Shown: piece after piece, positions 18,296 through 41,283 of the stretch
Layout: each line of letters begins with the position of its first letter
Numbering within the stretch: the first letter of the stretch is position 1
From: Thiobacillaceae bacterium
GTDB lineage: Bacteria > Pseudomonadota > Gammaproteobacteria > Burkholderiales > Thiobacillaceae
Direction of reading: 5' to 3'
NCBI GenBank assembly: GCA_012274165.1
Contig: JAAPAA010000285.1
Span: 1 to 41,283, forward strand
Length of the DNA stretch: 41,283 nt
Program-made: the position numbers and the translations under genes
Notes under the pieces: model-generated
Seen by the model: only the letters and a program-made list of their open reading frames with translations
The model's database searches: none
What the model was told of the DNA's origin: nothing

Positions 18296-18513
18296 GGGAT
18301 CGGTTTTTGGTGGATTAGCGCGAAGCCTACCGAAAAGCCACCCAATACAAAAGGGCGGCTGCAGAACGGTAGCCCGGTTTGGTGCATGGCAGGCTGCGAT
18401 CCGCACCAATTCTGCCCACGGCCATCCCGTCCGCTGCCGCCGCGTTCGCGCGACTGTATGCCGATCCAAGCATGGGCGCGGGTTTGCAAGCCGTCACCGT
18501 TTTCATGGCGAAC
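18296..18513. other. Spacer upstream of the sigma-54 promoter; possible enhancer site
   Basis: This non-coding stretch separates the minus-strand ATPase gene from the plus-strand guanidine leader. The only structure I see is an inverted repeat TTGGTGC-N17-GCACCAA at 18379-18409, about 130 bp before the sigma-54 element. Its halves resemble NtrC half-sites (GCACCA/TGGTGC) but in divergent order, so binding by NtrC is a weak inference. Confidence 0.3.
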
Positions 18514-18529
18514 TGGCACACGAGTTGCT
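18514..18529 (+). promoter_or_regulatory. Sigma-54 (RpoN) type promoter ahead of the guanidine riboswitch
   Basis: TGGCACACGAGTTGCT matches the -24/-12 consensus TGGCACG-N4-TTGCW at 11 of 12 fixed positions, with correct spacing between GG and GC. Transcription would start near 18540, about 45 nt before the riboswitch aptamer. Sigma-54 control fits a nitrogen-scavenging gene. Confidence 0.7.
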
Positions 18530-18582
18530 GATACAGGCATGTCGGGAAAGACGGCGCACGGGCGTCTGCATTTACCGCGAAT

Positions 18583-18677
18583 GCGCAGCTAGGGTTCCGG
18601 TCCCGCGAGGGATGGCTGGTCCGAGAGCAGCCGGCCCCGAAGGCGGGGCTCCACGGAGGGACAAAAGCCCGGGAGAA
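18583..18677 (+). ncRNA. Guanidine-I riboswitch (ykkC class)
   Basis: All the conserved blocks of the guanidine-I aptamer appear in order: CTAGGGTTCCG, then CTGGTCCGAGAG, then CCACGGAGGGACAAAAGCCCGGGAGA. The linking segments form the expected hairpins (for example GGTCCCGCGAGGGAT and CCGGCCCCGAAGGCGGGGCT). The class binds guanidinium and switches on genes for its export or breakdown. It lies 12 nt or so after an 11-bp direct repeat (GCATTTACCGC) that recurs at 18679-18689, just past the aptamer. The only downstream reading frames are relics, so the switch appears orphaned. Confidence 0.95.
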
Positions 18678-18713
18678 CGCATTTACCGCTGTCCGGGGTT
18701 GATTCATTTTTTT
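18666..18713 (+). terminator. Candidate riboswitch expression-platform terminator
   Basis: AGCCCGGGA (the 3' edge of the aptamer) can pair with TCCGGGGTT at 18692-18700 with one mismatch and one wobble, followed after 6 nt by seven T residues. Sharing of the AGCCCGGGA bases with the aptamer is the usual way guanidine-I switches control termination. The gap before the T run makes it weaker than a textbook terminator. Confidence 0.4.
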
Positions 18714-18727
18714 CCAAGGAGCGCACC

Positions 18728-18974
18728 ATGCATCTGAATGCCGTACTGAAAAAACTGCTGCCGTCGGCGATGGCGGGCAGCGCCATCGACAGCGCGCTGA
18801 TGACCTGCGACCAGGTGGTGGGCGCGACGCCCAGGGGCGCACCTTCAAGGTGGTGATGCCGGTGGATTATTCCTACGGCGGCGACGCGCTGCTGCAGAAA
18901 AATGCCAGGTCAAGCAGGCGGCCGCGATTCCCGCGACGCTCGACGACCGCTATGTGAAAAGCGTGCTGAAATAA
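18728..18974 (+). pseudogene. Relic of a secreted protein gene under the guanidine riboswitch
   Basis: A perfect AAGGAG lies 6 nt before the ATG. The first frame gives a signal-peptide-like start (MHLNAVLKKLLPSAMAGS) but stops after 42 codons. A second frame then reads QGRTFKVVMPVDYSYGGDALLQK, and after a run of A residues a third frame reads KCQVKQAAAIPATLDDRYVKSVLK and ends at TAA. So the beginning and end of a gene remain, joined with two frameshifts and probably a large internal loss. In intact guanidine operons this place is often held by an ABC transporter substrate-binding protein; that identity is inferred from position and the signal peptide, not from a recognised domain. Confidence 0.65.
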
Positions 18975-19020: not shown

Positions 19021-19293
19021 ATGTCCACCCGATTGTTCCGCCACCCAGACGGCACCCAGCCCGCGGCCAACGCCCGCGGCGGCGTGCTGATGACCTGGCT
19101 TACCGGCAGCTGCTATGCGAACTTGCGGCGCAAGCACATGCGCCACCACATCGACCGCGCCGACGTCATCAGTCTGGATACCAAGGCGCTACTGCTGAAA
19201 CTGTTGGCGCGACAGGAACACGCCGAGCTGTGGCCCAACCACGACATGGCTTTCTGGAAAACCCTGCGGCGCTTCCCCGAATGCCATGAATAG
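19021..19293 (+). pseudogene. Shrunken fatty-acid-desaturase gene relic
   Basis: This 90-codon open frame has the ends and one internal block of a membrane fatty-acid desaturase. The start LFRHPDGTQPA and the block GVLMTWLTGSCYANLRRKHMRHHIDRADVISLD look like the desaturase family, including the second histidine box HxxHH (HMRHH). The first box (HECAH type), the membrane helices and the third box are all missing, and an intact enzyme would be over 300 aa. The last 30 residues ([18 protein letters not shown]) are not recognised. It overlaps the start of the GGDEF-EAL gene by 8 nt, so it may still serve as a translated leader. A functional small protein cannot be excluded. Confidence 0.55.
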
Positions 19294-21451
19294 GCTCTCA
19301 AACGCGCAGCTTGCCGAACTGGCCGGGGCGGAATCCGACGCCCCGCTCGACGTCACGCGCCTGCTCACCACCATCACCGACAACCTGGTCGGCATGATCT
19401 ACCGCTGCCGGGTAGACGCGATCTGGAGCATGGAGTTTGTCAGCGACGGCTGCCACAAGCTCACCGGATACCGGCCCGACGAACTGGTGTTCAACACCCG
19501 GGTCTCCTACGACCAGATCACGCTGCAGGAAGACCGCGCGCACGTCAGCCGCACCATTCACCGCGCACTGGAAAAAAACGAATCCTTCGACATCGAGTAC
19601 CGCATCGAGCGCGCCGACGGCCGGGTATGCTGGGTGCTTGAACGCGGCGTCGGGATACGCGACGCAAGCGGCCGGCTGGCCTGGATCGAGGGATACATCC
19701 AGGACATCTCCGAACGCGTGGCGGCCAACGCCATGCTGCGCGAGACGGTGCGCCGCTACAGCAGCATTTTCGAGCACGCCACCGAAGGCATTTTCCAGAC
19801 CACGCCTGAAGGCCGTTATCTTGACGCCAATCCGGCGCTGGCGCGCATTTACGGCCACGCTTCGCCGGATGCGCTGATCGATCACCTGCACGACATCTCG
19901 CGCCAGCTGTATGTGCAGCCGGAGCGGCGCGCGGCCTTCGTGCGCCTGATGCAGGAACAGGGTGCGGTGCGCAATTTCGAGTCGCAGGTCTACCACCACG
20001 ACGGCCACATCATCTGGATTTCCGAGAACGCGCGCGCCGTCAAAAACGCGGATGGCAGCGTGCAGTTTTTCGAAGGCACCGTGGTTGACATCTCCGAGCG
20101 CCGCCAGCACGAAGCCGAGCTCGAATACCAGGCCAGCCACGACAGCCTGACCGGCCTGCCCAACCGTTCGCTGCTGCGCGACCGCATCGAACAGGCCATC
20201 GCCAAGGCGCGACGCGATGGCAACCGGGTGGGAGTGGTGTTTGTCGACCTTGACCACTTCAAGCTGATCAACGACAGCCTCGGCCACCACGTTGGCGATC
20301 GCCTTCTGCTGGAGGTTGCCGGCCGTCTCAGTTCCTGCATCCGTAGCCACGACAGCGTGGCGCGTCAGGGTGGCGACGAGTTCGTGCTGGTACTCACCGA
20401 GCAGCATGGCGAGGATGACACCCTCGCCATCATCACCCGACTGCTGGAGGTCATCTCCCAGCCATGGGTAGACGATGGCCGGGAATATGGGCTCAGTTGC
20501 AGCGTCGGCATCAGCTGTTATCCGAAGGACGGCGACGACCCCGACGCGCTGCTGCGCTGCGCCGACGCCGCCATGTACCAGGCCAAGGCGTCCGGCCGCA
20601 GCACCTACCATGTCTACACGCCCGAACTGAACCAGGCGATCAGCGCACGCCTTGAACTGGAAAACAGCCTGCGCCATGCGCTTGAACGCGCCGAATTCCG
20701 CGTCTATTACCAGCCGCGCATCGACGTTGCCAGCGGCCGCATCGTCGGCGCCGAAGCGCTGATCCGCTGGGAGTGTCCCGGCAAGGGCCTGATCCCGCCC
20801 GACCATTTCATTTCGATCGCCGAGGAAACCGGACTGATCATCCCCATCGGGCAATGGATCCTGCAGGAAGCCTGCCGCCAGAACCGCGCTTGGCAGCGCG
20901 CCGGGCTGCCACCCATCAGCGTCTCGGTGAATCTGTCGCCGATCCAGTTCCGCCATGCCGGGCTGGTGCAGTCGGTGGCCGCTGCGCTGCAGCAGGCGGA
21001 GCTGGACCCGGCCTGCCTGGAACTGGAACTGACCGAGTCCTTCGTCATGCACGACGCCGAACGCATCAACGTCGCCATGCAATCGCTGAAGGCGCTCGGC
21101 GTCGACATCGCGGTGGACGACTTCGGCACCGGCTATTCGAGCCTGAGCTATCTCAAGCGTTTCCCGGTCGATCGCCTCAAGGTGGACAAGAGCTTCGTGC
21201 GCGACATCGACAGCGACCCCGACGACGCCGCCATCGTGCGCGCCATCATTACCCTCGGCCACGCGCTGGGACTCAAGGTGGTAGCCGAAGGGGTGGAAAC
21301 CATGGCGCATCTGGAATTCCTGCAGCAGCATGGGTGCGACGAACTGCAGGGCTACTACTTCAGCCGTCCGGTTCCCGCTGCGGAAATGGAAGCCTTGCTA
21401 CGCGGCACGGCGGCGAGCGCGAGCTGGTGCGCATCGCAGCGTAGCGCATGA
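19286..21451 (+). CDS. PAS-PAS-GGDEF-EAL cyclic-di-GMP turnover protein
   Basis: A 721-aa soluble protein that probably makes and/or degrades c-di-GMP in response to a signal sensed by its PAS domains. Order: PAS (about residues 25-145, ending in a PAC segment YIQDISERV), PAS (150-275), GGDEF (280-445; intact GGDEF at 362-366 with an upstream RSHD inhibitory site), EAL (460-705; EAL at 490-492, [14 protein letters not shown] and AEGVET intact). Both enzymatic halves look competent. No membrane segment is evident. Its stop overlaps the next gene as ATGA. It starts inside the end of the desaturase relic, so it may be read from the sigma-54/riboswitch leader. Confidence 0.93.
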
Positions 21452-22287
21452 CGGCATCCATTCCATTGCATGCTGGCGAGTGGACGGAACAACCCGCGCC
21501 GGTTCCGGACGCCTACCTCGGCGTCTGGAACCGCACTCTGCTGGAAACCGCGAGCGGGCGTGATGAACGCAGCCAGGTGTGGTGGCTGCAAACCCCGCGC
21601 TGGCACGCCGATCTGCGCATCCCCGCCGGGCGGCCGGATTTTTCCGGCATCACCTGCCTTGCCGAATGCGACGACACGCAACTGGCCTGGCTCGCCACCC
21701 AGCAGGGTTTCTGCGGCGTCACCCAGGTGGAAGGTGAGGTCTGTACCTGGCATCGCCAGCTGGATTTCCAGCCTGCCAATGGCAGTCGCGACATCGGCCG
21801 CATGGTCTTTGACAGCGAGCGCGTGATCGAAACCGGCGTTGAATCCGACTATCAGGAAATCTGGGAACGGCTGCCACACAGCCAGGGCGGCACCGCCGCG
21901 CTCGAACTGCTGGTAGAAGCCGGCGAATTGCCCGTGCGTCCCGCCTGGCTCCTCGTCGCGGGCGACTGTTTCATCCATGTGCGGGGCCGCGCCCATCCCC
22001 TGCCGCATATCGCCAATCAGAAAAGTGTTTCTGACCTGGCCAGCCTCATCGCTCAAACCCGGCCCTCCCGCGCGCAACGGCTCGACTGGCTAAATGTCGA
22101 GATCAGTTTCGGCTATCGCAACGGCCCCGCACCCTGGCGCATCGAGCGTTCCACGCTGCCGTTCCGCGAGGGACAGATCCTCACTCACCCTGGAACCCTC
22201 CAGCGTCGTGGCCATCAGCTTGTCGTCGAAGGCAACAACGAACGGCGCTGGATAATCCTGGACTGGAACTTCGGCGCGATACTCTGA
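21448..22287 (+). CDS. Unknown 279-aa protein, translationally coupled to a GGDEF-EAL gene
   Basis: I do not recognise a named domain. The protein is soluble, lacks a signal peptide, and is rich in Trp and in alternating beta-type segments: [65 protein letters not shown], and the end [21 protein letters not shown]. The layout suggests a two-part beta-barrel (HRI1-like or lipocalin-like is possible, but this is only an impression). Its ATG overlaps the stop of the c-di-GMP gene, so the two are made together. A shortened relic of a second copy lies at 25115. Confidence 0.75.
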
Positions 22288-22429: not shown

Positions 22430-25000
22430 TTATGCTGCCGCCTGCATCACGGTTTCCGGCATGCACGGCATTTCACCGGCTTCCAGTGCACGATAGATGT
22501 AATCGATATCGAGCACCTGTATCAGCAGCCCATCCTGATTGCCCTTAATGAGCAGCGGCACCAGCGTTTCTCCGGCCTCCAGGGCGAATGGGCTAGGACT
22601 AATCTGCTCGTCGCGGAATTCCGGGACACCATGTAGTTCATCGACCAGCAAACCGATGCTTTGCTGCCCGTTCCAGACCACCACGACCTGACTGCTGTGG
22701 GTGATTTCAGACAGGCTTCCCCGCACCATGTAGCCCAGGTCAAATACCCAGATGAATTTTTTCTCCTCATCTTCGCGTTCGAGCGCAAGCATGCCGATTC
22801 GGCCGGTGAAACCACCCATCGAAACCGGCAGCAAACCCGAGCCTGGCAGGGCTTCCAGCACCTGCTCTGCAGGCATGGCATATAAATCGCCGTCAATGAA
22901 GCATGTTGCGAATTGCCTGCCACCGCTTTCCAGTAAATTGTGATCGATAACGGTGGAGACCCGATTGCCCGATGCGCGACGTTCGCGCACCTCGCCAAAG
23001 GATTCGAACACCACGGCAATGACATCCTCCTGGTAGTCGTCGCTGACCTTGAACTCGCGATAGCCGTTCGAGACGGTGCAGCCCATGCTTGCATAGCGAC
23101 CGTCATGGATCGTGATAATCGAGGTGCTGCAGCCATTTTTCTGCCGCAGGATTGCCGGATCGATATCGAGTTGGCTGCCCACCGGGCGAGCCGGATCGGT
23201 GCTGGCAATGATGAGGCCGCGGCGGTCGATGAAAAATGCCGTGGTGCCGGCCTTGCCATTCAGGCCGCCGTGCAGCATGGCGGAAAACTCCGGCGCGGCG
23301 TCGAACACGATGCCGATCCCGCCGACGACCATTTTTGGCTTGTCCGGATGGCGAATCGCGGCGTGGTAGACATAAGTTGGCAATCCGTCGTACAGCGGTG
23401 TCGCTGCAAATGGACTGACGTGGTAATCCTGCTCGGTCGCCAGCGATAACACCGATGCAAGCGTGTCATGCTCGACCGTGGTGCCGACAATATGCCGGTC
23501 TTCACCCTTCTGCGCCAGACAGGTGCTGGCGATGATCCGCCCACTTTTGTCATACACAAAAATCCGGGTGTAAACGGTATACAGACTGTTGATGTAGGCC
23601 AGGATGCCGGTGATGTTCTTGAGCATGGCCTCGGTCCGCGAAGGAGCAGCCAGCGCAGTGCGCAATGCTGGCGTCAACGCCCACCAGCGGCAATCATTGG
23701 CGCGCTCGTACAAATTGCGGTCGTGCAGGTCGACCAGTAAGTGCGTCATGAATTCCGCCCCGCGCAAACTGGAGCTCAGCACCGTTTCGTACAGGTTGCT
23801 GATGGATCGCGCAAACAGTTCGTTGCTGTGGTTGCCGGTTTCACTGATCTGCTCCAGCACCGATTTAAGCTGAACCTGATTATCGATGTTGCCGGCGGTC
23901 ATGACCTGTCCGTTCCACACGACGCGCTGTATGGTTTCGGCCGCCTTCATGATCTTGTAGAGCGGCGGCGAAAAGGTCTGCGCATGCGACAGCAGGCCGT
24001 CGACGATCGCGGGATCGAGCGATGACAGAGAGCGGTCGCCGTTTTCCAGGAATGCAACCTCGACCGGAACCATGACCTGCCCCTGCCAACCCGGAGGCCC
24101 CATGTAACCCTGATAGCCGTCCGCGCCAAAGGTCTGCACCAGATATTTGCGGCCACCGAACATCATCAGGCGGGCGCTGCCGCTCCGGTTCACCGGAACG
24201 ACCGAACCAACGGGCACCCACAGCGCATCTGCACTGGCAATGACGCGGTTTTCGCTGTCGAGCAACAGCATGTTCGAGCGCTCGTCCGGATCGCGATGCG
24301 ATTTGAAGATGCCCTGCATTTCCTGCTCGAAATCGAAGCAGAGACAGAGGATGCCGACCACCTTGCCGGTTTGCGGATGCAGCATCCGCTGCGAATAAAT
24401 CAGCGCTTTATCCTTGCCCGGGCGAAGGTCAGTCGCGCGGAAACTTTCGACATAGCTGCCTGAAGCCAGCGTTTGTCCGATCAGCGGGTCGATGCTGCCC
24501 TCAACTTCGGAATGCTCGTCGATCTGTACCAATATGTTTCCGTCCCGGTCCAGCAGCATGATTTCGTCGTAAACGGTGTACTTGCTGCGATAGGCCAGCA
24601 GGCGTGCATGAATGGCGTCCGCATTGTTCTGCTCGCCGGCAACGAATTCACAGAGATCGCGGTCAGTGGCGAGAAAGCCGACATCGGCAGTTCGCTCATA
24701 CAGATTGCGCACCACGATATCGATCACGTAGTGCGCCTTGGTGCCGATTTCCATCAGTACGTTCGCACACTTTTCGTGCACCAGGCTCGAAACCAGTTCG
24801 TGTTCCAACTGATCGAATCCGGCCCGCGTTGCCGCCATGGTTTGCAGAATCGATTGGGTCTCGGCCAAATAATTCATCTTGGCCGAGGACTCGATCATGC
24901 GCCACATCATGCTCAGTTCACGCAGGGATTGCTCGCTGCGGACAACGTCGCGCATGTAAGGCAAGAATATGTCGTTCTTCTGGTTGGAGGCATTGCTCAT
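22430..25000 (-). CDS. Soluble double-Cache-like protein with C-terminal CheW domain
   Basis: The 856-aa protein combines sensing-type and chemotaxis-coupling parts. Two similar halves each start with an NLYER motif (NLYERTADVGFLATD and NLYERANDCRWWAL) followed by a Cache-like segment (YTVYDEIMLLDRDGNILVQID; YTVYTRIFVYDKSGRIIAST), then DRRGLIIASTDPARPVG. The last 140 or so residues are CheW-like (CFIDGDLYAMPAEQVLEAL, WNGQQSIGLLVDELHGV). I see no membrane helix, HAMP or methyl-accepting signalling domain, so it is not a chemoreceptor in the usual sense. It may bring a cytoplasmic signal to CheA. The ATG at 25000 is preferred to the ORF-track start 31 codons upstream. Confidence 0.8.
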   Translation of the reverse strand: MSNASNQKNDIFLPYMRDVVRSEQSLRELSMMWRMIESSAKMNYLAETQSILQTMAATRAGFDQLEHELVSSLVHEKCANVLMEIGTKAHYVIDIVVRNLYERTADVGFLATDRDLCEFVAGEQNNADAIHARLLAYRSKYTVYDEIMLLDRDGNILVQIDEHSEVEGSIDPLIGQTLASGSYVESFRATDLRPGKDKALIYSQRMLHPQTGKVVGILCLCFDFEQEMQGIFKSHRDPDERSNMLLLDSENRVIASADALWVPVGSVVPVNRSGSARLMMFGGRKYLVQTFGADGYQGYMGPPGWQGQVMVPVEVAFLENGDRSLSSLDPAIVDGLLSHAQTFSPPLYKIMKAAETIQRVVWNGQVMTAGNIDNQVQLKSVLEQISETGNHSNELFARSISNLYETVLSSSLRGAEFMTHLLVDLHDRNLYERANDCRWWALTPALRTALAAPSRTEAMLKNITGILAYINSLYTVYTRIFVYDKSGRIIASTCLAQKGEDRHIVGTTVEHDTLASVLSLATEQDYHVSPFAATPLYDGLPTYVYHAAIRHPDKPKMVVGGIGIVFDAAPEFSAMLHGGLNGKAGTTAFFIDRRGLIIASTDPARPVGSQLDIDPAILRQKNGCSTSIITIHDGRYASMGCTVSNGYREFKVSDDYQEDVIAVVFESFGEVRERRASGNRVSTVIDHNLLESGGRQFATCFIDGDLYAMPAEQVLEALPGSGLLPVSMGGFTGRIGMLALEREDEEKKFIWVFDLGYMVRGSLSEITHSSQVVVVWNGQQSIGLLVDELHGVPEFRDEQISPSPFALEAGETLVPLLIKGNQDGLLIQVLDIDYIYRALEAGEMPCMPETVMQAAA

Positions 25001-25114
25001 CGGATCGGTTTTGGCATCAAGTTGAAATGCCTGAAAACTAGCAAGTAGCAGACCAGGCCTGCACTTGTGAAACCTCAGAGCGCCTTTATCCACGGTGCAT
25101 CAAGCGGAATCTGA

Positions 25115-31976: not shown

Positions 31977-33770
31977 TCAAGCTGCCCGGCTGGCCAGCCA
32001 CGCCCGCCATCCGCCATAGTCCGTAATGTCCTGCGCATCAGCCACGCCGATGCCTTCGCAGATGAAGCCATTCGCCACGCTGCCGTCGGCCAGTTCCAGT
32101 TTGCCGATGCCGAGCGGCGCCGGGATGCCGGCGACGAAGGAACCGAACTGGCTGGCGGGCATTTCCCAGACTTCGCAGGCGATGGCGGCGCCGCCCTCGT
32201 GCACTTTGATGAGGCCGGGGCGCTTGCCGTCGGGCAGGGCGTAGAAGCGGTATGTCGGCGCGGTCTGCGTCGTGGCCCCCAGACGGGCGTTGCGCTCGGT
32301 AAGTTGATGGTTGAGCGGCAAGCCGCTGAGATGTGCACCGACGACAGCGACCCGGACCTGGCCGCCAGGAAGCAGGTTCAATGTTTCGGCATCAGGCAGA
32401 ACATGCTCGGTGGCGCCCAGCTTGCCGCCGAGCGCCTGCTGCATGCGCGACGCCAGGTGCAGCAGCGGACCATCCTGATGCGGCGGCGCGATAAGGGTGA
32501 CGCCGAACGGCAGGCCATCATTCTGGAACCCGGCTGGCACAGCGGTCGCGGCGAGGTCGAGCAGGTTCATGAAGTTGGTGTAATAGCCGAGATTGGAATT
32601 GAGACGGATGGGGTCGGCTTCCATCTCGTCCACGCGATAGATCGTGCCGGCGGTGGGGGTGAGCATCACGTCGATGTCGTTCCACGCCGCATCGCACACC
32701 CGCCTGAACGCGCGCAGCCTGTAGAGATGGGCGAAGGTATCGGCGGCGCTGATGTCGCGACCGCCGGCGATGATGTCGCGCACCGGCGGAAACACCTTGT
32801 CCGGCTGCGCGTCGAAAAAGTCGCGGATGGCGAGGTAGCGCTCGGCGACCCAGGGGCCGCCGTAGAGCAGGCGCGCGGTGTCGAGGAAGGGGGCGAGATC
32901 GACTGCGACCGGCGTGCCGCCCAGCGCCTGCATGCGTTCCACCGCTTCGCCGAACAACCGCTCTGCCTCGGCGTTGCCGAAGAATTGCAGGTCCTTCTGC
33001 ATCGGCACGCCGAACCTGAAACCGGCGGCGCGGCCGAAGTCGAAGCCGTGCGGCGACAGCGGCCGCGAGTATTCATCGTCGGCGTCGAAACCGGCGGCGA
33101 CCGCCAGCACGCGCTCGGCGTCCTCCGCAGTCAACGCGAAAATCGACACCGCATCGAGCGAGCGGCACGCGGGCACCACACCGTGGGTGGACAGCGCGCC
33201 GCAGCTTGGCTTGTGGCCGACGAGGTGATTGAACGCGGCGGGCACGCGGCCGGATCCGGCGGTGTCGGTGCCGAGCGAGAAGCTCGCCAGACCGAGCGCC
33301 ACCGCGACCGCCGAACCGGAACTGGAGCCGCCGGAAATGAAATCGGGGTTGAAAGCGTTGCGGCAGGCGCCGTAGGGCGAGCGGGTGCCGTTCAAGCCGG
33401 TGGCGAACTGGTCGAGGTTGGTCTTGCCAAGCGGGATGGCACCGGCGTCGATCAGGCGCTGTACGACGGTAGCGTTGCGTTCCGGCGTGTAGGCGTATTC
33501 CGGACAGCCTGCGGTGGTAGGCAGACCGGCGAGATCGATGTTGTCCTTGATGGCGAAGGGGATGCCGTAGAGCGGCAGGCTGGCGATGTCCCTGCCTTCG
33601 AGTTTGCTTGCATAGGCCCGCAGGGCGTCGGCGTCGAGGCGGCTGATCCAGATATGGTGCGTGTCTTCTGCAGCTGTACGGGCGAGCAGGTCTTCCACCA
33701 GTTCAAGCGGGGTGAGTTCGCCGGACTGGTAGCGCTGGCGCAGGGTGGCGATGTCGAGCAATGGTTTCAT
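31977..33770 (-). CDS. atzF: Allophanate hydrolase
   Basis: The enzyme hydrolyses allophanate to ammonia and CO2, the final step after urea or guanidine carboxylation. The 597-aa protein has an amidase-signature domain (about 1-440) with the triad K75 (PFAIKDNID), cis-Ser in SGGSSSGSAVA (about 149-150) and nucleophile S173 (TDTAGSGRVP). It also has the C-terminal allophanate-hydrolase domain (about 475-597: VAVVGAHLSGLPLNHQLTERNA, ASQFGSFVAGIPAPLGIGKLEL). The C-terminal domain and the adjacent carboxylase separate it from generic amidases. It starts 10 nt after the carboxylase stop. Confidence 0.95.
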   Translation of the reverse strand: MKPLLDIATLRQRYQSGELTPLELVEDLLARTAAEDTHHIWISRLDADALRAYASKLEGRDIASLPLYGIPFAIKDNIDLAGLPTTAGCPEYAYTPERNATVVQRLIDAGAIPLGKTNLDQFATGLNGTRSPYGACRNAFNPDFISGGSSSGSAVAVALGLASFSLGTDTAGSGRVPAAFNHLVGHKPSCGALSTHGVVPACRSLDAVSIFALTAEDAERVLAVAAGFDADDEYSRPLSPHGFDFGRAAGFRFGVPMQKDLQFFGNAEAERLFGEAVERMQALGGTPVAVDLAPFLDTARLLYGGPWVAERYLAIRDFFDAQPDKVFPPVRDIIAGGRDISAADTFAHLYRLRAFRRVCDAAWNDIDVMLTPTAGTIYRVDEMEADPIRLNSNLGYYTNFMNLLDLAATAVPAGFQNDGLPFGVTLIAPPHQDGPLLHLASRMQQALGGKLGATEHVLPDAETLNLLPGGQVRVAVVGAHLSGLPLNHQLTERNARLGATTQTAPTYRFYALPDGKRPGLIKVHEGGAAIACEVWEMPASQFGSFVAGIPAPLGIGKLELADGSVANGFICEGIGVADAQDITDYGGWRAWLASRAA

Positions 33771-33780
33771 TTTCTATTCC

Positions 33781-36700
33781 TCACTCGCTCACCAGCACCA
33801 GCAGGTCCTGCCCGGCGGAGACCTGCCCACCTTCGCGGCAGAACACCTTGTGGATGCGGCCGTCGCACGGCGCCATCACGGCGAACTCCATCTTCATCGA
33901 TTCGATGATGACGAGCGGATCGCCCTGCTTCACCTCAGCCCCATCTTCCACTTCCACTTTCCACACGTTGCCGGCGACGTGGCTGGCGATGGCGCGGCCG
34001 TTTTCCGGCAGGTCGAGTTCGCTGTCGGGGGCGGCTTCTGCCACCGTCAGGTCGCTGGCGTAGTCGGCCTGGCCGCTGGCGCGCCAGCGTTCGCGCTCTT
34101 CGTCGAACGAGGCCTGCTGCTGCGTCTTGAAGGCGGTGATGGACGCGCTGTTGTCGCTGAGAAACGTGTTGTAGTCGCGCAGGCTGAAGGTGGTTTCCTC
34201 GATCTTCAGCTGGTAGCGGCCAAGGGGGAAATCCTCGCGGATCTTGAGCAACTCGTCCTCGCTCACCGGGAAGAAGCGCACCTGGTCGAAGAAGCGCAGC
34301 AGCCATGGCTTGCCGTCGGTGAAGTTGGCCGTCTGGCGCCAGCGGTTCCACATCTGCAAGGTGCGGCCGACGAACTGGTAGCCGCCGGGGCCTTCCATGC
34401 CGTAGACGCACATGTAGGCGCCGCCGATGCCGACGGCGTTTTCCGGGGTCCAGGTACGGGCTGGGTTGTACTTGGTGGTGACCATGCGATGGCGCGGATC
34501 GACCGGCGTCGCCACCGGCGCACCGAGGTAGACGTCGCCGAGGCCCATCACCAGGTAGCTGGCATCGAAGACGATGCGCTTCACTTCCTCGATGCTGTCG
34601 AGGCCGTTGATGCGGCGGATGAACTCGATGTTGCTCGGGCACCAGGGCGCATCCTTGCGCACCGACTGCATGTACTTCTCGATTGCGAGTTTGGTCGCGG
34701 CGTCGTCCCACGACAGTGGGATGTGCACGATGCGGGTCGGCACCTGCATGTCCTCGATGGCGGGCAGCGCCTTTTCCGCGGCCAGCAGCAGGTCCATCAG
34801 TTTCGACAGCGGCAGCACGCGCGAGTCGTAGTGCACCTGCAGCGAACGGATGCCGGGCGTGAGATCGAGGATGCCAGGTACGGCGTCGGCCTGCAGCTTG
34901 GTCATCAGCGCGTGCACGCGGAAGCGCAGGTTGAGGTCGAGCACCAGCGGGCCGTATTCGATGAGCAGGTATTTGTCGCCGGCGCGGCGGTAAACCACGG
35001 CAACGGGGTTGTCGGTTTCGGGGGTGCGGTGCAGCACGGGTTCGGCGAGCGGACCGCTATCGGCGACGGGCGCGGCCGGGGCGTCGAGGCTGGCGATGGC
35101 GGCGTCCTGCGCCGCCTCCATCTGCTCGGCCTGCGTCTGGCTCAAGCGCTTGAAGCGCACGGTATCGCCCGGGCGCAGCTGGCCCATTTTCCACAACTCG
35201 GCCTGCACGATGGTGGCCGGGCAGACGAAACCGCCGAGCGAGGGACCGTCCGGCCCGAGGATGACCGGCATGTCACCGGTGAAGTCGACCGCGCCGATGG
35301 CGTAGGCGTTGTCGTGAATGTTGGACGGATGCAGTCCGGCCTCGCCGCCGTCCTTGCGCGCCCACTGCGGGCGCGGACCGATCAGACGGACGCCGGTGCG
35401 GCTGGAGTTGTAGTGCACTTCCCAGTCGGTGGCGAAGAACATCTCGATGTCGGCGTCGGTGAAGAAATCCGGCGCGCCGTGCGGACCGTACAGCACGCCG
35501 ATTTCCCACGCGTGCGTGTAAGTCGGGCGCAACGCGACGGGCAGCGCCTTGTCGATGCTCGCAGATTCCGCTGCCGGGATATGCAGCACGTCGCCGACGC
35601 GTAGCGTACGCCCGGCGTGGCCGCCGAACTGGCCGAGCGTGAACGTCGATTTGCTGCCGAGATAATCCGGCACGTCGAAGCCGCCGCGCACCGTGAGATA
35701 GGCGCGGCAGCCGCTGTCCCTGATCGCGCCGAGCTTGAGCATGCCGCCAGCCTTGACCGCGTGCGCCGCCCAGTTGGCGAGCGGTACGCCATCGAGTTCG
35801 GCGCCCATATCGGCACCAGCGAGCGCGATCACGCTGTCGCAGTTGAAGCGCAGCGTGGGGCCAGCGACGGTGAGTTCGAGCGCGGCCGCGCCCTCCTCGT
35901 TGCCGGCCAGCCTGTTGGCGAGCCGCAGCGCCAGCGCATCCATCGGCCCCGACGGCGGCACGCCGACGTCCCAGTAACCGGTGCGGCCCGGCCAGTCCTG
36001 GATGCTGCTCTGCACGCCGGGTTCGATGACGTCGATCGTTGCCGGGCGGTAGTGGAAGGCGTTGAGATAGCGCGTCGTCTGCCGCCCTTCCATGAACACC
36101 ATGTCGCGCACGATCTGGCCGAGGTAGCCGAGGTTGGTCTCGATGCCGGCAACGCGGGTATTGGCCAGCACCTGCTGCATCTTGCTCAGTGCGTCGACGC
36201 GGTCGATGCCCTTGACGATGATCTTCGCCACCATGGGATCGTAGAACGGCGGCACGTCGGAACCGCGCTCGACCCAGGTCTCGATCCGCGCGTCGGCGGG
36301 AAACACGACTTCGGTCAGCACGCCGGCGGCGGGCTGGAAGTCCTTGCCCGGGTCTTCTGCATACAGGCGCACCTGCATCGAGGCTCCCTGCGGATCGGCC
36401 TTGAAGCCGGACAAATCCAGCTCGCCGGCCGCCTCCTTCACCATCCACTCGACCAGGTCGACGCCGGTGACTTCCTCGGTGACACCGTGCTCGACCTGCA
36501 GGCGGGTGTTCACTTCGAGGAAATAGAATTCGCCACTTTGCGTGTCGTAGACGAATTCGACCGTGCCGGCGGAGCGGTAACCAACCGCCTCGCCGAGGCG
36601 CACCGCGGTGGCCAGCAGGCTGTTTCTTTGAATATCGGTGAGACCCGGCGCCGGGGTTTCCTCGATGACCTTCTGGTTGCGCCGCTGCACCGAGCAATCA

Positions 36701-37377
36701 CGTTCTCCCAGCGCGACGACATGGCCCTTGCCGTCGCCGAAGATCTGCACCTCGATGTGGCGCGCGTGCTCGACATACTTCTCGAGGAAAATGCCGGCCT
36801 CCTTGAAGTTGGCGCGCGCCAGCCGCTCGACCGACTGGAAGGCCTCCACCAGTTCGTCGGCGCTCCAGATCAGGCGCATGCCGATGCCGCCGCCGCCGGC
36901 GGTGCTCTTCAGCATCACCGGGTAGCCGATGCGCGCCGCCTCGGCCTGGGCGTGGCCGGCGTCGGACAGCAGGCCAGAGCCGGGCAGCAACGGCACCTTG
37001 TTGTGCTCGGCGAGATCGCGCGCGGTGTGTTTGAGTCCGAAGGCGCGCATCTGATCCGGACTGGGGCCGATGAAGGCGATGCCGGCAGCAGCGCAGTCCT
37101 CGGCGAAGCCGGGGTTCTCGGACAGGAAACCGTAGCCGGGATGAACGGCCTGCGCGCCTGTAGATTTCGCCGCTTCGAGAATCTTCTCGCCACGCAGGTA
37201 GCTCTGCGCCGCCGGCGCCGGGCCGATCTCAACGGCTTCGTCGGCCAGCCGCACGTGCAGCGAATGGCGGTCTGCCTCCGAATAGACGGCGACAGATTTC
37301 ACCCCCATGGTGCGAAGGGTGCGGATGATGCGGCAAGCGATGGCGCCGCGGTTGGCGATGAGAACCTTGTCGAACAT
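33781..37377 (-). CDS. Biotin-dependent guanidine/urea carboxylase
   Basis: This enzyme carboxylates guanidine or urea using ATP, bicarbonate and biotin. From the ATG at 37377 (GGAG 7 nt upstream) it is 1198 aa. Domain order: biotin carboxylase (1-450: FDKVLIANRGAIACRIIRT, STAGGGGIGMRL, LEVNTRLQVEHGVTEEVTG), a two-part carboxyltransferase (about 465-1065, with PGVQSSIQDWPGRTGYWDVG and TKYNPARTWTPENAVGIGG), and a biotinyl domain (about 1125-1198) with the biotin lysine in ESMKMEF. Presence of both DUF1989 partners next door favours guanidine over urea as the true substrate. The residue reported to separate the two could not be placed here without an alignment. Confidence 0.93.
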   Translation of the reverse strand: MFDKVLIANRGAIACRIIRTLRTMGVKSVAVYSEADRHSLHVRLADEAVEIGPAPAAQSYLRGEKILEAAKSTGAQAVHPGYGFLSENPGFAEDCAAAGIAFIGPSPDQMRAFGLKHTARDLAEHNKVPLLPGSGLLSDAGHAQAEAARIGYPVMLKSTAGGGGIGMRLIWSADELVEAFQSVERLARANFKEAGIFLEKYVEHARHIEVQIFGDGKGHVVALGERDCSVQRRNQKVIEETPAPGLTDIQRNSLLATAVRLGEAVGYRSAGTVEFVYDTQSGEFYFLEVNTRLQVEHGVTEEVTGVDLVEWMVKEAAGELDLSGFKADPQGASMQVRLYAEDPGKDFQPAAGVLTEVVFPADARIETWVERGSDVPPFYDPMVAKIIVKGIDRVDALSKMQQVLANTRVAGIETNLGYLGQIVRDMVFMEGRQTTRYLNAFHYRPATIDVIEPGVQSSIQDWPGRTGYWDVGVPPSGPMDALALRLANRLAGNEEGAAALELTVAGPTLRFNCDSVIALAGADMGAELDGVPLANWAAHAVKAGGMLKLGAIRDSGCRAYLTVRGGFDVPDYLGSKSTFTLGQFGGHAGRTLRVGDVLHIPAAESASIDKALPVALRPTYTHAWEIGVLYGPHGAPDFFTDADIEMFFATDWEVHYNSSRTGVRLIGPRPQWARKDGGEAGLHPSNIHDNAYAIGAVDFTGDMPVILGPDGPSLGGFVCPATIVQAELWKMGQLRPGDTVRFKRLSQTQAEQMEAAQDAAIASLDAPAAPVADSGPLAEPVLHRTPETDNPVAVVYRRAGDKYLLIEYGPLVLDLNLRFRVHALMTKLQADAVPGILDLTPGIRSLQVHYDSRVLPLSKLMDLLLAAEKALPAIEDMQVPTRIVHIPLSWDDAATKLAIEKYMQSVRKDAPWCPSNIEFIRRINGLDSIEEVKRIVFDASYLVMGLGDVYLGAPVATPVDPRHRMVTTKYNPARTWTPENAVGIGGAYMCVYGMEGPGGYQFVGRTLQMWNRWRQTANFTDGKPWLLRFFDQVRFFPVSEDELLKIREDFPLGRYQLKIEETTFSLRDYNTFLSDNSASITAFKTQQQASFDEERERWRASGQADYASDLTVAEAAPDSELDLPENGRAIASHVAGNVWKVEVEDGAEVKQGDPLVIIESMKMEFAVMAPCDGRIHKVFCREGGQVSAGQDLLVLVSE

Positions 37378-37387
37378 GCAATCTCCG

Positions 37388-37428
37388 GCGGGTCGTCCCG
37401 CTTCATTCAATGCAGCGGGGCGTCCCGC
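37388..37428. repeat. Tandem hairpins between DUF1989 and carboxylase genes
   Basis: Two copies of a 14-nt hairpin, GCGGGTCGTCCCGC and GCGGGGCGTCCCGC, each with a 5-bp stem and 4-nt loop, lie 13 nt apart in the 60-nt gap. Read in the direction of transcription they sit just before the carboxylase RBS. They could be an mRNA processing or stability element, or a REP-like repeat. Confidence 0.5.
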
Positions 37429-37437
37429 CGTCAGGTT

Positions 37438-38097
37438 TTATTGTTCAGGCGCGTCCCAGATCAGCACCCGCACCGGCGTCGGGTTGTAGGCGTTGCACGG
37501 GTTGTTGAGCTGCGGGCAATTGGAGATCAGGCACAGCACGTCCATCTCGGCGCGCATCTCGACGTACTTGCCCGGCGCCGACACGCCATCGGCGAAGGTC
37601 AGGCCGCCCTCGGGCGTCACCGGCACGTTCATGAAGAAGTTGATGTTGCTGGTGATGTCGCGCTTGGTCAGGCCACCCTCATAGTGGGCGAGCGCATGCA
37701 GGAAACTGTCGCGGCAGGAATGCATCGGCCGCTTGTCGAGCGCATAGCGCACGGTGTTGCTCTCGCACGAGCAGGCGCCGCCGAGGGTGTCGTGGCGGCC
37801 GCAGGTGTCGGCGGTAATGGTGAGCATCGCCCTGCCTTCGGTCGACATCAGCTGCGTGCCGGCGGTGAGATACAAGGCGCCCTGCGCGCGCACGGTGTCG
37901 GCGGCGCTGTAGCGTTCCTCCGGGTCGCGCGCATTGAAGAACAGGGTGTCGACCGCCTGGTTGCCTTCGAGGTCGAGGATGCGGAAGACCTGACCCTTCT
38001 TGATTTCGTGGATCCACGGATCGCCGGCGTCAACCACGGCATCCACCACAGCGGTCTTGGGATCGAAGGAACTTTCGACGAGGTTAAAACGAGTCAC
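37438..38097 (-). CDS. DUF1989 protein, urea-carboxylase-associated protein 2 (carboxyguanidine deiminase subunit)
   Basis: A 219-aa cytoplasmic protein of the DUF1989 family. Motifs seen: [45 protein letters not shown], and [21 protein letters not shown]. The cysteine-, histidine- and aspartate-rich block suggests a metal or catalytic site. Published work on the homologous pair shows that it forms carboxyguanidine deiminase, turning carboxyguanidine into allophanate plus ammonia; which of the two bears the catalytic site is not decided here. It lies 9 nt after its partner gene and 60 nt before the carboxylase gene. Confidence 0.9.
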
Positions 38098-38106
38098 GGT
38101 GCCACC

Positions 38107-38844
38107 TCAACGGAACAGGATTTCGGTTTGATAGAAGCCGCGCTGGTTTTCCGCGCAGGCGTTGCGGCAGACGTCGTCGGCAGCTGGCGTTCCGCTCTTC
38201 CACGCGGTCAGCATGACGTCGCCCGGCGCGTAGTCGGGGCGCGGATCGAGCGGATGCGGTGCGGCAGACAGCACCACCAGCACGTTCATCTCGAAGCGTA
38301 GATCAACGTAGGCACCAGGGTGCGAATTGGCGGCGTCGAAGTGCAGCCGGCCGGCCTCGTCGGCGACGACCTTGCTGAAGAAGTTGACGTTCGGCACTAC
38401 GTCGCGCTTGCCCAGCCCCCACTTGCCGAGTTCGACCAGCAGGCCATCGCGGCCGTTGCGGTGCATGGCGTTGCGGTGGGTCTGGTAGGTGGCTTCGCCG
38501 TACTTCGCCTTCACCATCTCGGCGTTGCTGGCGCCGCACAGCGGGTCATGCCAGCCGCAGCTGTCATGGATCACCGAGCACAGCACGTGGCCCATGTCGG
38601 AGTAGCAGACGTGGCCCGTCGTCAGGTGCGCGGTGTGCTGCGCCTTGAGGGTGTCGGGCATGTTGTAGCGCTCGAGCTTTTCTTCGGCGTTGTAGAACAG
38701 TGCCGAGACGTTGGCGCGGCCGCTCAGATCGGTGAGCCGCAACGCGTTGCCGCGGCGCAGGATGCCCGACCAATGGCAGCCACCCGGCAGCAGCTCTTCC
38801 CACAGGAACAGCTTCGGGGCAATGGGGTTGAGGTTTTGTGCCAT
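38107..38844 (-). CDS. DUF1989 protein, urea-carboxylase-associated protein 1 (carboxyguanidine deiminase subunit)
   Basis: A 245-aa DUF1989 protein and paralogue of its neighbour. Shared pattern: LRRGNALRLTDLSGRANVSALFYNA, IHDSCGWHDPLCGASNAEM, and NVNFFSKVVADEAGRLHF. It is longer than the partner, with an extra C-terminal tail (CRNACAENQRGFYQTEILF). Together the two are expected to act as a heteromeric carboxyguanidine deiminase between the carboxylase and allophanate hydrolase steps. The ATG at 38844 gives the standard start. Transcribed 36 nt after the NikR-like regulator gene. Confidence 0.9.
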   Translation of the reverse strand: MAQNLNPIAPKLFLWEELLPGGCHWSGILRRGNALRLTDLSGRANVSALFYNAEEKLERYNMPDTLKAQHTAHLTTGHVCYSDMGHVLCSVIHDSCGWHDPLCGASNAEMVKAKYGEATYQTHRNAMHRNGRDGLLVELGKWGLGKRDVVPNVNFFSKVVADEAGRLHFDAANSHPGAYVDLRFEMNVLVVLSAAPHPLDPRPDYAPGDVMLTAWKSGTPAADDVCRNACAENQRGFYQTEILFR

Positions 38845-38880
38845 ATGAAATCCAGTCGATAGGTTGATAGCCGGCTTATC

Positions 38881-39348
38881 TCAGCCGGCGGCCGGCGCGT
38901 GCAGCGGCGGGATGACCGCCGCCAGCAGGTGCAGGCGGCCGGTGATGACGCCGCGCAAGCCGAGCATTTCATGGGTGATGGCCTGGAGCGTGGTCGCCGG
39001 GCCCTGGACCAGAATCACCTCCAGCATCTGGTCCTCGGTCAGGTGTACATGCAGCGAGCTGATGACCTCGGCGACGTACTGATACTGGATGTCCGCCAGC
39101 CGGCCCTGCAGGCTGCGGGTGGCACGGTTGTACAGCAAGGTCAGGGTGCCCGCCATGACCTCGTTGCCGAGGCTGCGCTTATGCTCGGCCAGCTGATAAT
39201 TGACCATTTCGCCGATGGCCTGCGAGCGGCTGTCATAGCCGCGGCTCTCGACCATGCTGTCCAGCCCGGCCAGCAGGTCCGGCGGCAGCGAGACACTGAT
39301 TCGGCTGACCGGGCTGGACACCTTCTCGCTTCCGTTTTTCGTCGTCAT
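38881..39348 (-). CDS. NikR-like ribbon-helix-helix regulator with altered metal site
   Basis: A 155-aa regulator with an N-terminal ribbon-helix-helix DNA-binding part (about residues 15-50: RISVSLPPDLLAGLDSMVESRG) and a C-terminal ACT-like NikR domain. Counting against E. coli NikR, the nickel ligands H87 and H89 are kept (SSLHVHL), but C95 is Met (TEDQMLEV) and H76 is Tyr (IQYQY). High-affinity square-planar nickel binding is therefore unlikely as in true NikR. It sits inside the guanidine/GlnT operon, so it may control it in response to another metal or ligand. Spacing is 20 nt after glnT and 36 nt before the DUF1989 pair. Confidence 0.85.
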   Translation of the reverse strand: MTTKNGSEKVSSPVSRISVSLPPDLLAGLDSMVESRGYDSRSQAIGEMVNYQLAEHKRSLGNEVMAGTLTLLYNRATRSLQGRLADIQYQYVAEVISSLHVHLTEDQMLEVILVQGPATTLQAITHEMLGLRGVITGRLHLLAAVIPPLHAPAAG

Positions 39349-39368
39349 GCTTGGCTCTGTTCAGGCTG

Positions 39369-40730
39369 TCAGAACATGTAGCTGTAGCGTTCGACTTCCC
39401 ACTTGCTGACCGACAGGTGGTAAGCCTCCCACTCCTCGTTCTTGTAGCGGATGAACTCGTCGCGCAGTCCCTTGCCCAGGGTGGCCTCGACCAGCGGGTC
39501 GGCAGCGAAGGCGGCCACGGCCTCCTGCAGGGTCTGCGGCAGGAACTCGATGCCGCGCGCGCGGCGCTCGTCGTCGCCGATGGCATAGAGGTTGTCCTCG
39601 TTCGGGTTGCCCGGACTCAGACCCTCGCGAATGCCTTCCAGGCCAGCGGCCAGGGCCAGGGTGGCGGCCAGGTAAGGGTTGACCGCGCCGTCGGCGTTGC
39701 GCGATTCGCAGCGGCCGCCGCCGGAGGGAATGCGGACCGAGTTGGTGCGGTTGTTGGAGCCCCAGGAGTTGAACACCGGCGCCCAGGAAAAATAGCTCAT
39801 GGCACCGCGCCGCACCAGGCGCTTGTAGCTGTTCACCGTCGGCGCGAACACAGCGCACAGGGCGCGGCCGTGCTTGAGGATGCCGGCGACGAAGCTGTAG
39901 CCGAGCGGGGTCAGGCCGATGCCGTGCGGGTCGTCCTCGGGCGCGCAGGCGAACAGGTTCTTGCCGGTCTCCAAATCGTAGATCGACATGTTGAAGTGGG
40001 CGCCGTTGCCGGTTTTGTCGGCGAAAGGCTTGGGCATCATGGTGGCGAGCAGGCCTTCCTCCTTGGCGTAGTGCTTGGCCATGAAGCGGAAGAATGTGAG
40101 GCGATCGCAGGTGGTCAGCGCATCGGCGTAGTTGAAGTCGAACTCGAACTGGCCGTTGGCATCTTCGTGGTCGAAGGAATACAGGTCCCAGCCGAGGTCG
40201 TTGATGGTTGTGGCCACCTTGTCCAGCCAGGAGAAATTGTCGACAAAGCCGCGCACGTCGTAGCAGGGCTTGGTGAGCTTGTCGTCGGCGACCGGCACCG
40301 ACAGGCTGCCGTCGTCGTTCTGCTTCAACAGGAAGATCTCGCACTCGATGCCCAGGTTCATGCCGTAGCCGAGCTTGGCCGCCTCGGCCAGCTGGTTCTT
40401 CAGGGCGACGCGGGTGTTCAGGGCATAGGGCTTGCCCTGGAAATGGTTGTCAGCCGGAATCCAGGCGATCTTCGGCTCCCACGGCAACTGGATGGCGCGG
40501 TCGAGGTCCGGCACCGAGGTCAGCTCGTCGTCGTTGGGTGCCTGGCCGAGGCCATCCAGGGCGTAGCCAGTATAGCGTTCGGAGCCCTTGGCCATCTGGC
40601 CGAGGTGGCCGATCGGCACGACCTTGGCCTTGGGCACGCCGTGGATGTCGACATAGGCGCCGATGCAATATTTCACGCCCTTGTCGGTCAGGTCTTTTTG
40701 CTGGTTGGCGATCTCTTCGTTCGAATACAT
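39369..40730 (-). CDS. glnT: Type III glutamine synthetase-like protein (GlnT)
   Basis: A 453-aa member of the GlnT branch of the glutamine synthetase family, ligating ammonia (or a small amine) to glutamate with ATP. Landmarks: beta-grasp start ([21 protein letters not shown]), metal-binding glutamates in [49 protein letters not shown] and the [14 protein letters not shown] block. It is close to gamma-glutamylamide synthetases, so the true amine may not be ammonia. In the nitrogen operon it would trap ammonia released by allophanate hydrolysis. AAGGA precedes the ATG by about 7 nt. Confidence 0.9.
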
Positions 40731-40764
40731 GTTGGGTCCTTGGTGCGTGGATAAGCGGGACGGC

Positions 40765-41283
40765 TCAGGCGCCGTCGCCGAAATAGGAATGGGGAAGCGG
40801 GGGGGCCTCGGTACAGCCTTTCACAACCAGCTTGGCAAGGTCGGCCACCAGCCAGTCGAACCAGCGCGCGCCCTTCTCCGCCGTGGCCAGGCTGGGCGTG
40901 CCGGTCACGCCATTGAGGCTGGTGCGATTGACCGGATGGGAAAAGACGCAGCCACAGGTGCGGTCCGGGTCGTCGGCTTCTGCGAACTTGTCCGGACGCA
41001 CCCCCTCGGGGGCGATGGCCAGCATGATCGACGCCTCGGCGTCGTTAGCGTGCCAGTCGTCGGCGTCGGCGCTGTGGAATTCGCGCACCCGTTCGCTGAG
41101 CGTCGCGGTATTAATCACCGCGACCATCAGGTCGTCGTGCTCGGCGCGCAACATCTCCAGGGCGCAGCGCAGCGGCGCAGCGTTGGTGACATGCGCGTTG
41201 ACGATGAACAGGCGGCGGATGCCGCTGTGATACGCCCAGTCGCCGATCTCCTTGACCAGCTGGATCAGCGTGACCGGCTGCAG
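40765..41283 (-). CDS. Creatininase-family amidohydrolase (C-terminal part, cut by window edge)
   Basis: A metal-dependent amidohydrolase of the creatininase family. The open frame continues off the right edge, so the ORF-track start at 41154 is only an internal Met; 172 residues are visible. The visible part has the metal-site neighbourhood [17 protein letters not shown] (usual NGHGGN becomes NAHVTN, with the histidine kept) and [16 protein letters not shown], where the glutamate matches the conserved metal ligand. The family cleaves creatinine and formamide-like amides; this member may feed a nitrogen compound into the operon. The substrate is unknown. Confidence 0.8.

Follow-up and report, generated by a model that had tools for sequence, protein, structure and literature searches.

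Guanidine-I riboswitches (ykkC subtype 1, RF00442) usually stand ahead of a transporter, a carboxylase or an exporter, and transcriptional ON switching is given as their customary mode in PMC12186494. PMC12508155 describes MgdL, a β-barrel 'hypothetical protein' of a guanidine-riboswitch operon, as splitting N-(hydroxymethyl)guanidine and needing D49 and R51 to do so; in Vreelandella boliviensis, mgdH-mgdL accompany a gca/cgdAB/atzF operon. Within the open-licence PMC literature, including PMC12186494, PMC7266159, PMC2211319, PMC11410670 and PMC12508155, we found no pairing of a guanidine-I switch with a c-di-GMP/GGDEF enzyme or with sigma-54 (subscription papers may differ), and nothing on point about riboswitch relics.

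Aptamer, platform and promoter

The locus described here lies in a 41,283-nt stretch of DNA, hereafter the window. Its source, a Thiobacillaceae bacterium, is a sulphur oxidiser of soil and water, and the genome assembly contains a single guanidine-I copy. Searching the window against Rfam (cmscan) returned nothing besides Guanidine-I at the gathering threshold, with 82.4 bits (gathering score 63, E 2.3e-13) at 18578-18677 on the forward strand, where the alignment spans the full model (positions 1-107 of 107). This confirms the observation of a sequence-only reading, which had recognised the aptamer and its intact conserved blocks, and moves the start that it had given from 18583 to 18578. 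All columns invariant across 16 aligned aptamers (15 relatives and the window; the row of genome G050 was left out) are intact here, and 2 of 94 alignable columns carry private changes, compared with 3, 2 and 1 in functional relatives. In these respects, and in having a predicted rival hairpin downstream, the element resembles its class; it differs in that the hairpin is weakened and in that the nearest intact downstream genes encode, in place of the usual partners, a GGDEF-EAL protein and an MgdL homologue.

The anti-aptamer hairpin is predicted at 18666-18700 (+), where GCCCGGGA pairs with UCCGGGGU with one G-G mismatch and one G-U pair, and a run of seven T lies 3' of it at 18707-18713. Its folding energy of -13.6 kcal/mol is the weakest among the intact-aptamer leaders folded: the five closest leaders (G032, G017, G068, G025 and G066) range from -20.9 to -26.0 kcal/mol, and intact ABC-type leaders from -15.1 to -30.5 kcal/mol, several being nearly as weak as the window. 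Private changes affect 4 of 36 hairpin positions, and the 68-nt platform of the window folds no better than its own shuffles. Further downstream are the AAGGAG Shine-Dalgarno sequence (18716-18721) and the ATG (18728) to which the earlier reading had pointed (together 18716-18730, +), formerly those of a substrate-binding-protein gene.

Ahead of the aptamer, TGGCAC-N5-TTGCT at 18514-18529 (+; GG-N10-GC) matches 11 of 12 positions of the sigma-54 consensus (GG-N10-GC, TGGCAC/TTGC), a score equalled by 0 of 300 shuffles, and is a putative sigma-54-type -24/-12 promoter. All 24 leaders tested that have an above-threshold aptamer carry a GG-N10-GC match at 10-12 of 12 positions, 49-74 nt 5' of it, and such matches occur also at 13 of 13 GGDEF-EAL loci without one; per locus, 0 to 14 of 300 first-order shuffles equal the match. 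Such a promoter was thus seen ahead of all beta-proteobacterial guanidine-I leaders tested (the window and 36 others), a regularity that suggests joint control by nitrogen and guanidine. Inverted half-sites 5' of the promoter (TTTGGTGCA...GCACCAATT, 18378-18411), conserved in alignments, are a possible site for an enhancer-binding protein.

The intact operon and its remains

In relatives, where operon members were located by tblastn with the genes of locus L031 and domains were assigned by Pfam, the intact order is aptamer, substrate-binding protein, fatty-acid-desaturase-like protein, EamA protein, (isochorismatase), MBL hydrolase, PAS-GGDEF-EAL protein and a 279-aa MgdL homologue. NCBIfam matches to the operon proteins all fall below cut-offs, the closest being SsuA/urea-type binding proteins, biuret amidohydrolase and AHL lactonase. 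G025, G068 and G008 (whose contig begins within the first gene) each have the whole operon with its genes in this order; it is split over two contigs in G017, and lacks the isochorismatase gene in G032, where the contig ends within the GGDEF-EAL gene and the MgdL homologue is on another contig. RF00442 matched 13 of 60 related genomes, 12 of them above cut-off; a second search, run at a permissive E of up to 1, matched 12 of 21 loci, 8 above cut-off.

The remnants in the window match pieces of this operon in the same order. The coding sequence that the switch should control is, as had been proposed, a frameshifted remnant: at 18728-18974 (+), alignment to relatives identifies what is left of an NMT1/SsuA-type substrate-binding-protein gene, its original TAA retained and pieces of one protein spread in order over three frames. 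Compared with G032, this gene lacks 174 nt (at a TGCT repeat), is frameshifted, and has then had most of its middle deleted, amounting to two large deletions and a frameshift. The next ORF, also rightly taken for a relic, is a 90-codon fusion of N-terminal desaturase pieces to the final 32 MBL codons (19021-19293, +), with its stop 8 nt within the GGDEF-EAL gene. Relative to G032, the desaturase gene is short of 171 nt (at a repeat of about ACCCAGCCC) and of 9 nt, and about 2.26 kb running from this gene to the end of the MBL gene are gone (short repeat CTG). Several deletions, at least three of them at short repeats, have thus occurred in the window, and most of the first five operon genes are missing; what is left is the promoter, the aptamer, the Shine-Dalgarno sequence and start codon, and the last two operon genes, with some 600 nt of RNA, either untranslated or frameshifted, separating the switch from the GGDEF-EAL gene. 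Judging from these alignments, the best explanation of the locus is an eroded guanidine-responsive Thiobacillus operon of which the leader and the tail survive. The idea that selection had kept the deletions in frame for coupling was dropped, as all three frames overlap or fuse with the start ATG (ATGAATAG).

The intact PAS-PAS-GGDEF-EAL gene at 19286-21451 (+; Pfam) is the first full gene in line, in agreement with the earlier reading. Its GGDEF and EAL signatures are intact and an RxxD I-site is present, motifs that would place the product in the bifunctional diguanylate cyclase/phosphodiesterase class, and its dN/dS of 0.16-0.23 against three orthologues indicates purifying selection. Because relatives carry the gene inside an intact riboswitch operon, it belonged to the guanidine operon before the window's deletions. 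The interpretation that the switch is either a fossil or a regulator of a c-di-GMP enzyme is therefore supported in part: both alternatives stand, but such control would not be a new capture brought about by the deletions.

Scanning one genome per species (84,980 species) for the 279-aa family gave 23 loci, in Thiobacillus, Rhodocyclaceae, Comamonadaceae, Oxalobacteraceae, Sphaerotilus and Leptothrix. Among nine of these searched with Rfam, six have Guanidine-I nearby and L125 has none within 9 kb, while L115 and L122 are short contigs. Outside Thiobacillus (L121-L128), the gene follows an MBL, creatininase, desaturase or binding-protein gene, and in none of these loci does GGDEF-EAL precede it; in Thiobacillus L120, the operon has the MBL gene immediately before it. 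As the outgroup operons are without GGDEF-EAL, this gene was probably inserted between the MBL gene and the last gene within Thiobacillus.

That last gene (21448-22287, +) starts in a 4-nt overlap with the GGDEF-EAL stop and is under purifying selection (dN/dS 0.29-0.34); the protein, described earlier as coupled and unknown, is by profile and D-x-R motif an MgdL-type lyase homologue. Its AlphaFold2 model (279 aa) is a barrel with a mean pLDDT of 81, for which yeast YLR301w (3rby, E 1.8e-6) is the best PDB match, followed by lipocalin-like folds. W52, H53, D55 and R57 are invariant in 18 of 18 aligned family members, D55 and R57 forming the D-x-R of the window. Searching 369 genomes of the window's class with profile A4 gave seven matches including the window's own. 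One of them, in L141 (E 4.9e-46), follows 2OG-dioxygenase-like and carboxylase-like ORFs and has D and R at residues 49 and 51 when numbered manually from the likely ATG; a dioxygenase-like neighbour is present in L140 and L142 too, all these neighbours being named by eye. Guanidine-II occurs in L140 and L141, and Guanidine-I in L139 and L143. On the strength of the dioxygenase-adjacent relatives and of the D and R at 49 and 51 in L141, we name 21448-22287 an MgdL homologue by profile-linked gene context and D-x-R, with putative lyase activity.

Compared with the Vreelandella boliviensis operon (PMC12508155), the Thiobacillus one is alike in placing an MgdL-family gene, with D-x-R at the catalytic place, in a guanidine-riboswitch operon; it differs in having no adjoining 2OG dioxygenase, in carrying a fatty-acid-desaturase-type protein when intact, and in the insertion of GGDEF-EAL ahead of the lyase gene. 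Closer parallels are the operons of Sphaerotilus mobilis and Leptothrix discophora (L127, L128), which bring together aptamer, substrate-binding protein, desaturase and MgdL homologue; unlike in Thiobacillus, neither has GGDEF-EAL, and that of L127 continues with ABC permease, ATPase (by eye) and DUF1989 genes. The desaturase-family protein, probably diiron, lies between the binding-protein and downstream genes (L031:3218-4228; L127:7911-8987) in operons that carry MgdL homologues. By analogy, this companion of MgdL homologues is a testable candidate for a guanidino-compound hydroxylase standing in MgdH's place, though unrelated to MgdH.

The window also contains a guanidine-carboxylase pathway, at 31977-38844 on the reverse strand: allophanate hydrolase (31977-33770; TIGR02713, 806.9 bits, cut-off 511.05), urea/guanidine carboxylase (33781-37410; TIGR02712, 1933 bits, cut-off 1303.85) and the DUF1989 proteins UAAP2 (37438-38097) and UAAP1 (38107-38844), carboxyguanidine deiminase-type subunits that match the TIGR03424/TIGR03425 pair above cut-off. 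The statement that no intact gene is left behind the switch thus applies to the five adjoining genes, which are lost, and not to the guanidine genes of the window as a whole. By analogy with relatives, the carboxylase operon's own leader would lie past the contig end; we accordingly rejected the notion that a sole guanidine-I copy means a lost pathway. In the same operon (31977-41283, -), beyond UAAP1 towards the contig end, lie genes for a NikR-like regulator, a glutamine-synthetase-family protein and a creatininase-family protein, the last cut by the contig end.

Repeated erosion in Thiobacillus

A GGDEF-EAL orthologue at ≥77% identity is present in 23 of 56 genus genomes (G000 included). 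Two were left outside the state calls, G012 for its short or uninformative upstream sequence and G026, which has a GGDEF-EAL fragment with one stop at a contig start and was also excluded from the tree. Among the others, five have the whole operon (G025, G068, G017, G008, G032); three have an above-cut-off aptamer with most upstream genes gone (the window, 82.4 bits; G066, 78.5; G077, 65.6); three have a degenerate aptamer that still scores (G005, 36.5; G060, 24.3; G019, 21.2); three have degenerate remains recognised by alignment alone (G016, G079, G020); one keeps only the final MBL codons (G031); and six (G067, G018, G021, G062, G064, G034) show no operon trace on inspection, the upstream sequence of G021 being short or uninformative. 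In G066, which has kept the MBL gene and lost four others, neither aptamer nor hairpin shows any damage. The G077 element (L086) has altered conserved blocks and a deleted platform and is fused to an internal MBL codon, so that its match is likely a threshold-passing pseudo-riboswitch; passing the Rfam threshold was for this reason rejected as proof of function.

The GGDEF-EAL protein tree places G066 beside G017 (99/98) and G077 beside G008 (100/100); as these partners are different genomes that have the whole operon, the two losses are separate events. Only the starred pairs of this tree were used, since it is midpoint-rooted, its outgroup aligned poorly (branch length 10) and 10 of its 20 inner branches are open. 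In G005, G060, G016, G079, G019 and G020, GGDEF-EAL was kept as the aptamer decayed after gene loss; guanidine control is thus dispensable for retention of this gene, which outlasted the aptamer in all six. In G079, which matches the isolate Thiobacillus thioparus DSM 505, a break near residue 505 interrupts the GGDEF-EAL reading frame, and the MgdL homologue is open (L097); GGDEF-EAL has a stop or gap in G062 and G008.

A live switch or a recent fossil

On balance, we lean towards an eroded leader that is probably still guanidine-responsive and controls the c-di-GMP enzyme and the MgdL homologue. Sigma-54 polymerase would start about 10 nt past 18529; in the absence of guanidine, the last helix of the aptamer would give up its 3' strand to downstream pairing (18666-18700) and transcription would be attenuated, and guanidine would stabilise the aptamer and let the polymerase read through. 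Translation of the fusion ORF, with its stop inside the GGDEF-EAL gene, would then feed GGDEF-EAL by coupling, and this in turn the lyase homologue, so that both products would be guanidine-responsive in a cell that has kept the guanidine-carboxylase pathway, under control that is probably leakier than in relatives. We count in favour, as far as sequence can speak, the intact aptamer, the start signals, the promoter at constant distance, the few private changes, the operon history, the purifying selection on both genes, the carboxylase pathway in the window and the customary ON mode of the class; the weak hairpin and the six relatives that keep GGDEF-EAL after aptamer decay count against it, as does polarity, which could uncouple the switch from the enzyme over the roughly 600 nt of intervening RNA.

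A close rival, to which we attach serious though smaller weight, holds that the genes were lost so recently that the aptamer has yet to mutate, and that the leader is in effect constitutive, both genes simply following the sigma-54-type promoter. The remnant codons carry private changes at 14 of 301 first and second positions and 14 of 100 third positions, the corresponding figures for four functional relatives being about 2% and 10%, so that the loss looks late; on a rough estimate, the catabolic genes would have been lost within the final fifth of the branch. Roughly 2 neutral changes are then expected in the aptamer, as many as are seen, so that a live switch and a young fossil look alike in sequence; as upstream gene loss appears this recent, a young fossil would be equally undecayed, and we rejected aptamer conservation as proof of function. 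The low stability and private changes of the hairpin also fit a fossil, as do the six decayed-aptamer relatives, which retain the promoter match along with GGDEF-EAL. It is opposed by the integrity of all invariant aptamer columns, by the fully intact aptamer and hairpin of the similarly eroded G066, and by the intact ABC-type operons whose hairpins are nearly as weak (-15.1 kcal/mol). We consider it very improbable that the deletions are mis-joins in a metagenome-assembled contig whose true genome has the whole operon: the assembly is indeed fragmented (407 contigs; completeness 83.6%, contamination 5.3%), but the pieces have diverged separately from every relative and are joined at different short repeats, and like erosion in other genomes, the isolate-matching G079 among them, shows it to be not merely a metagenome artefact.

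Returning to the live switch, a wider scenario is offered only tentatively, and we think it rather doubtful: a PAS-GGDEF-EAL gene inserted into a sigma-54-promoted, guanidine-I-switched operon, some lineages keeping the switch as a stand-alone sensor after repeated independent gene loss, with guanidine and a sigma-54 signal setting c-di-GMP. Should such wiring be functional, guanidine would serve as a lifestyle signal as well as a nitrogen source or a poison. Thiobacillus provides a natural series of riboswitches outliving their genes, from intact through weakened and decayed to gone, and this series makes it possible to test what becomes of a regulatory RNA once its genes are lost. Adjoining the eroded operon in the window, on the opposite strand (22430-25093, -), is a gene for an 887-aa protein with dCache and CheW-like domains.
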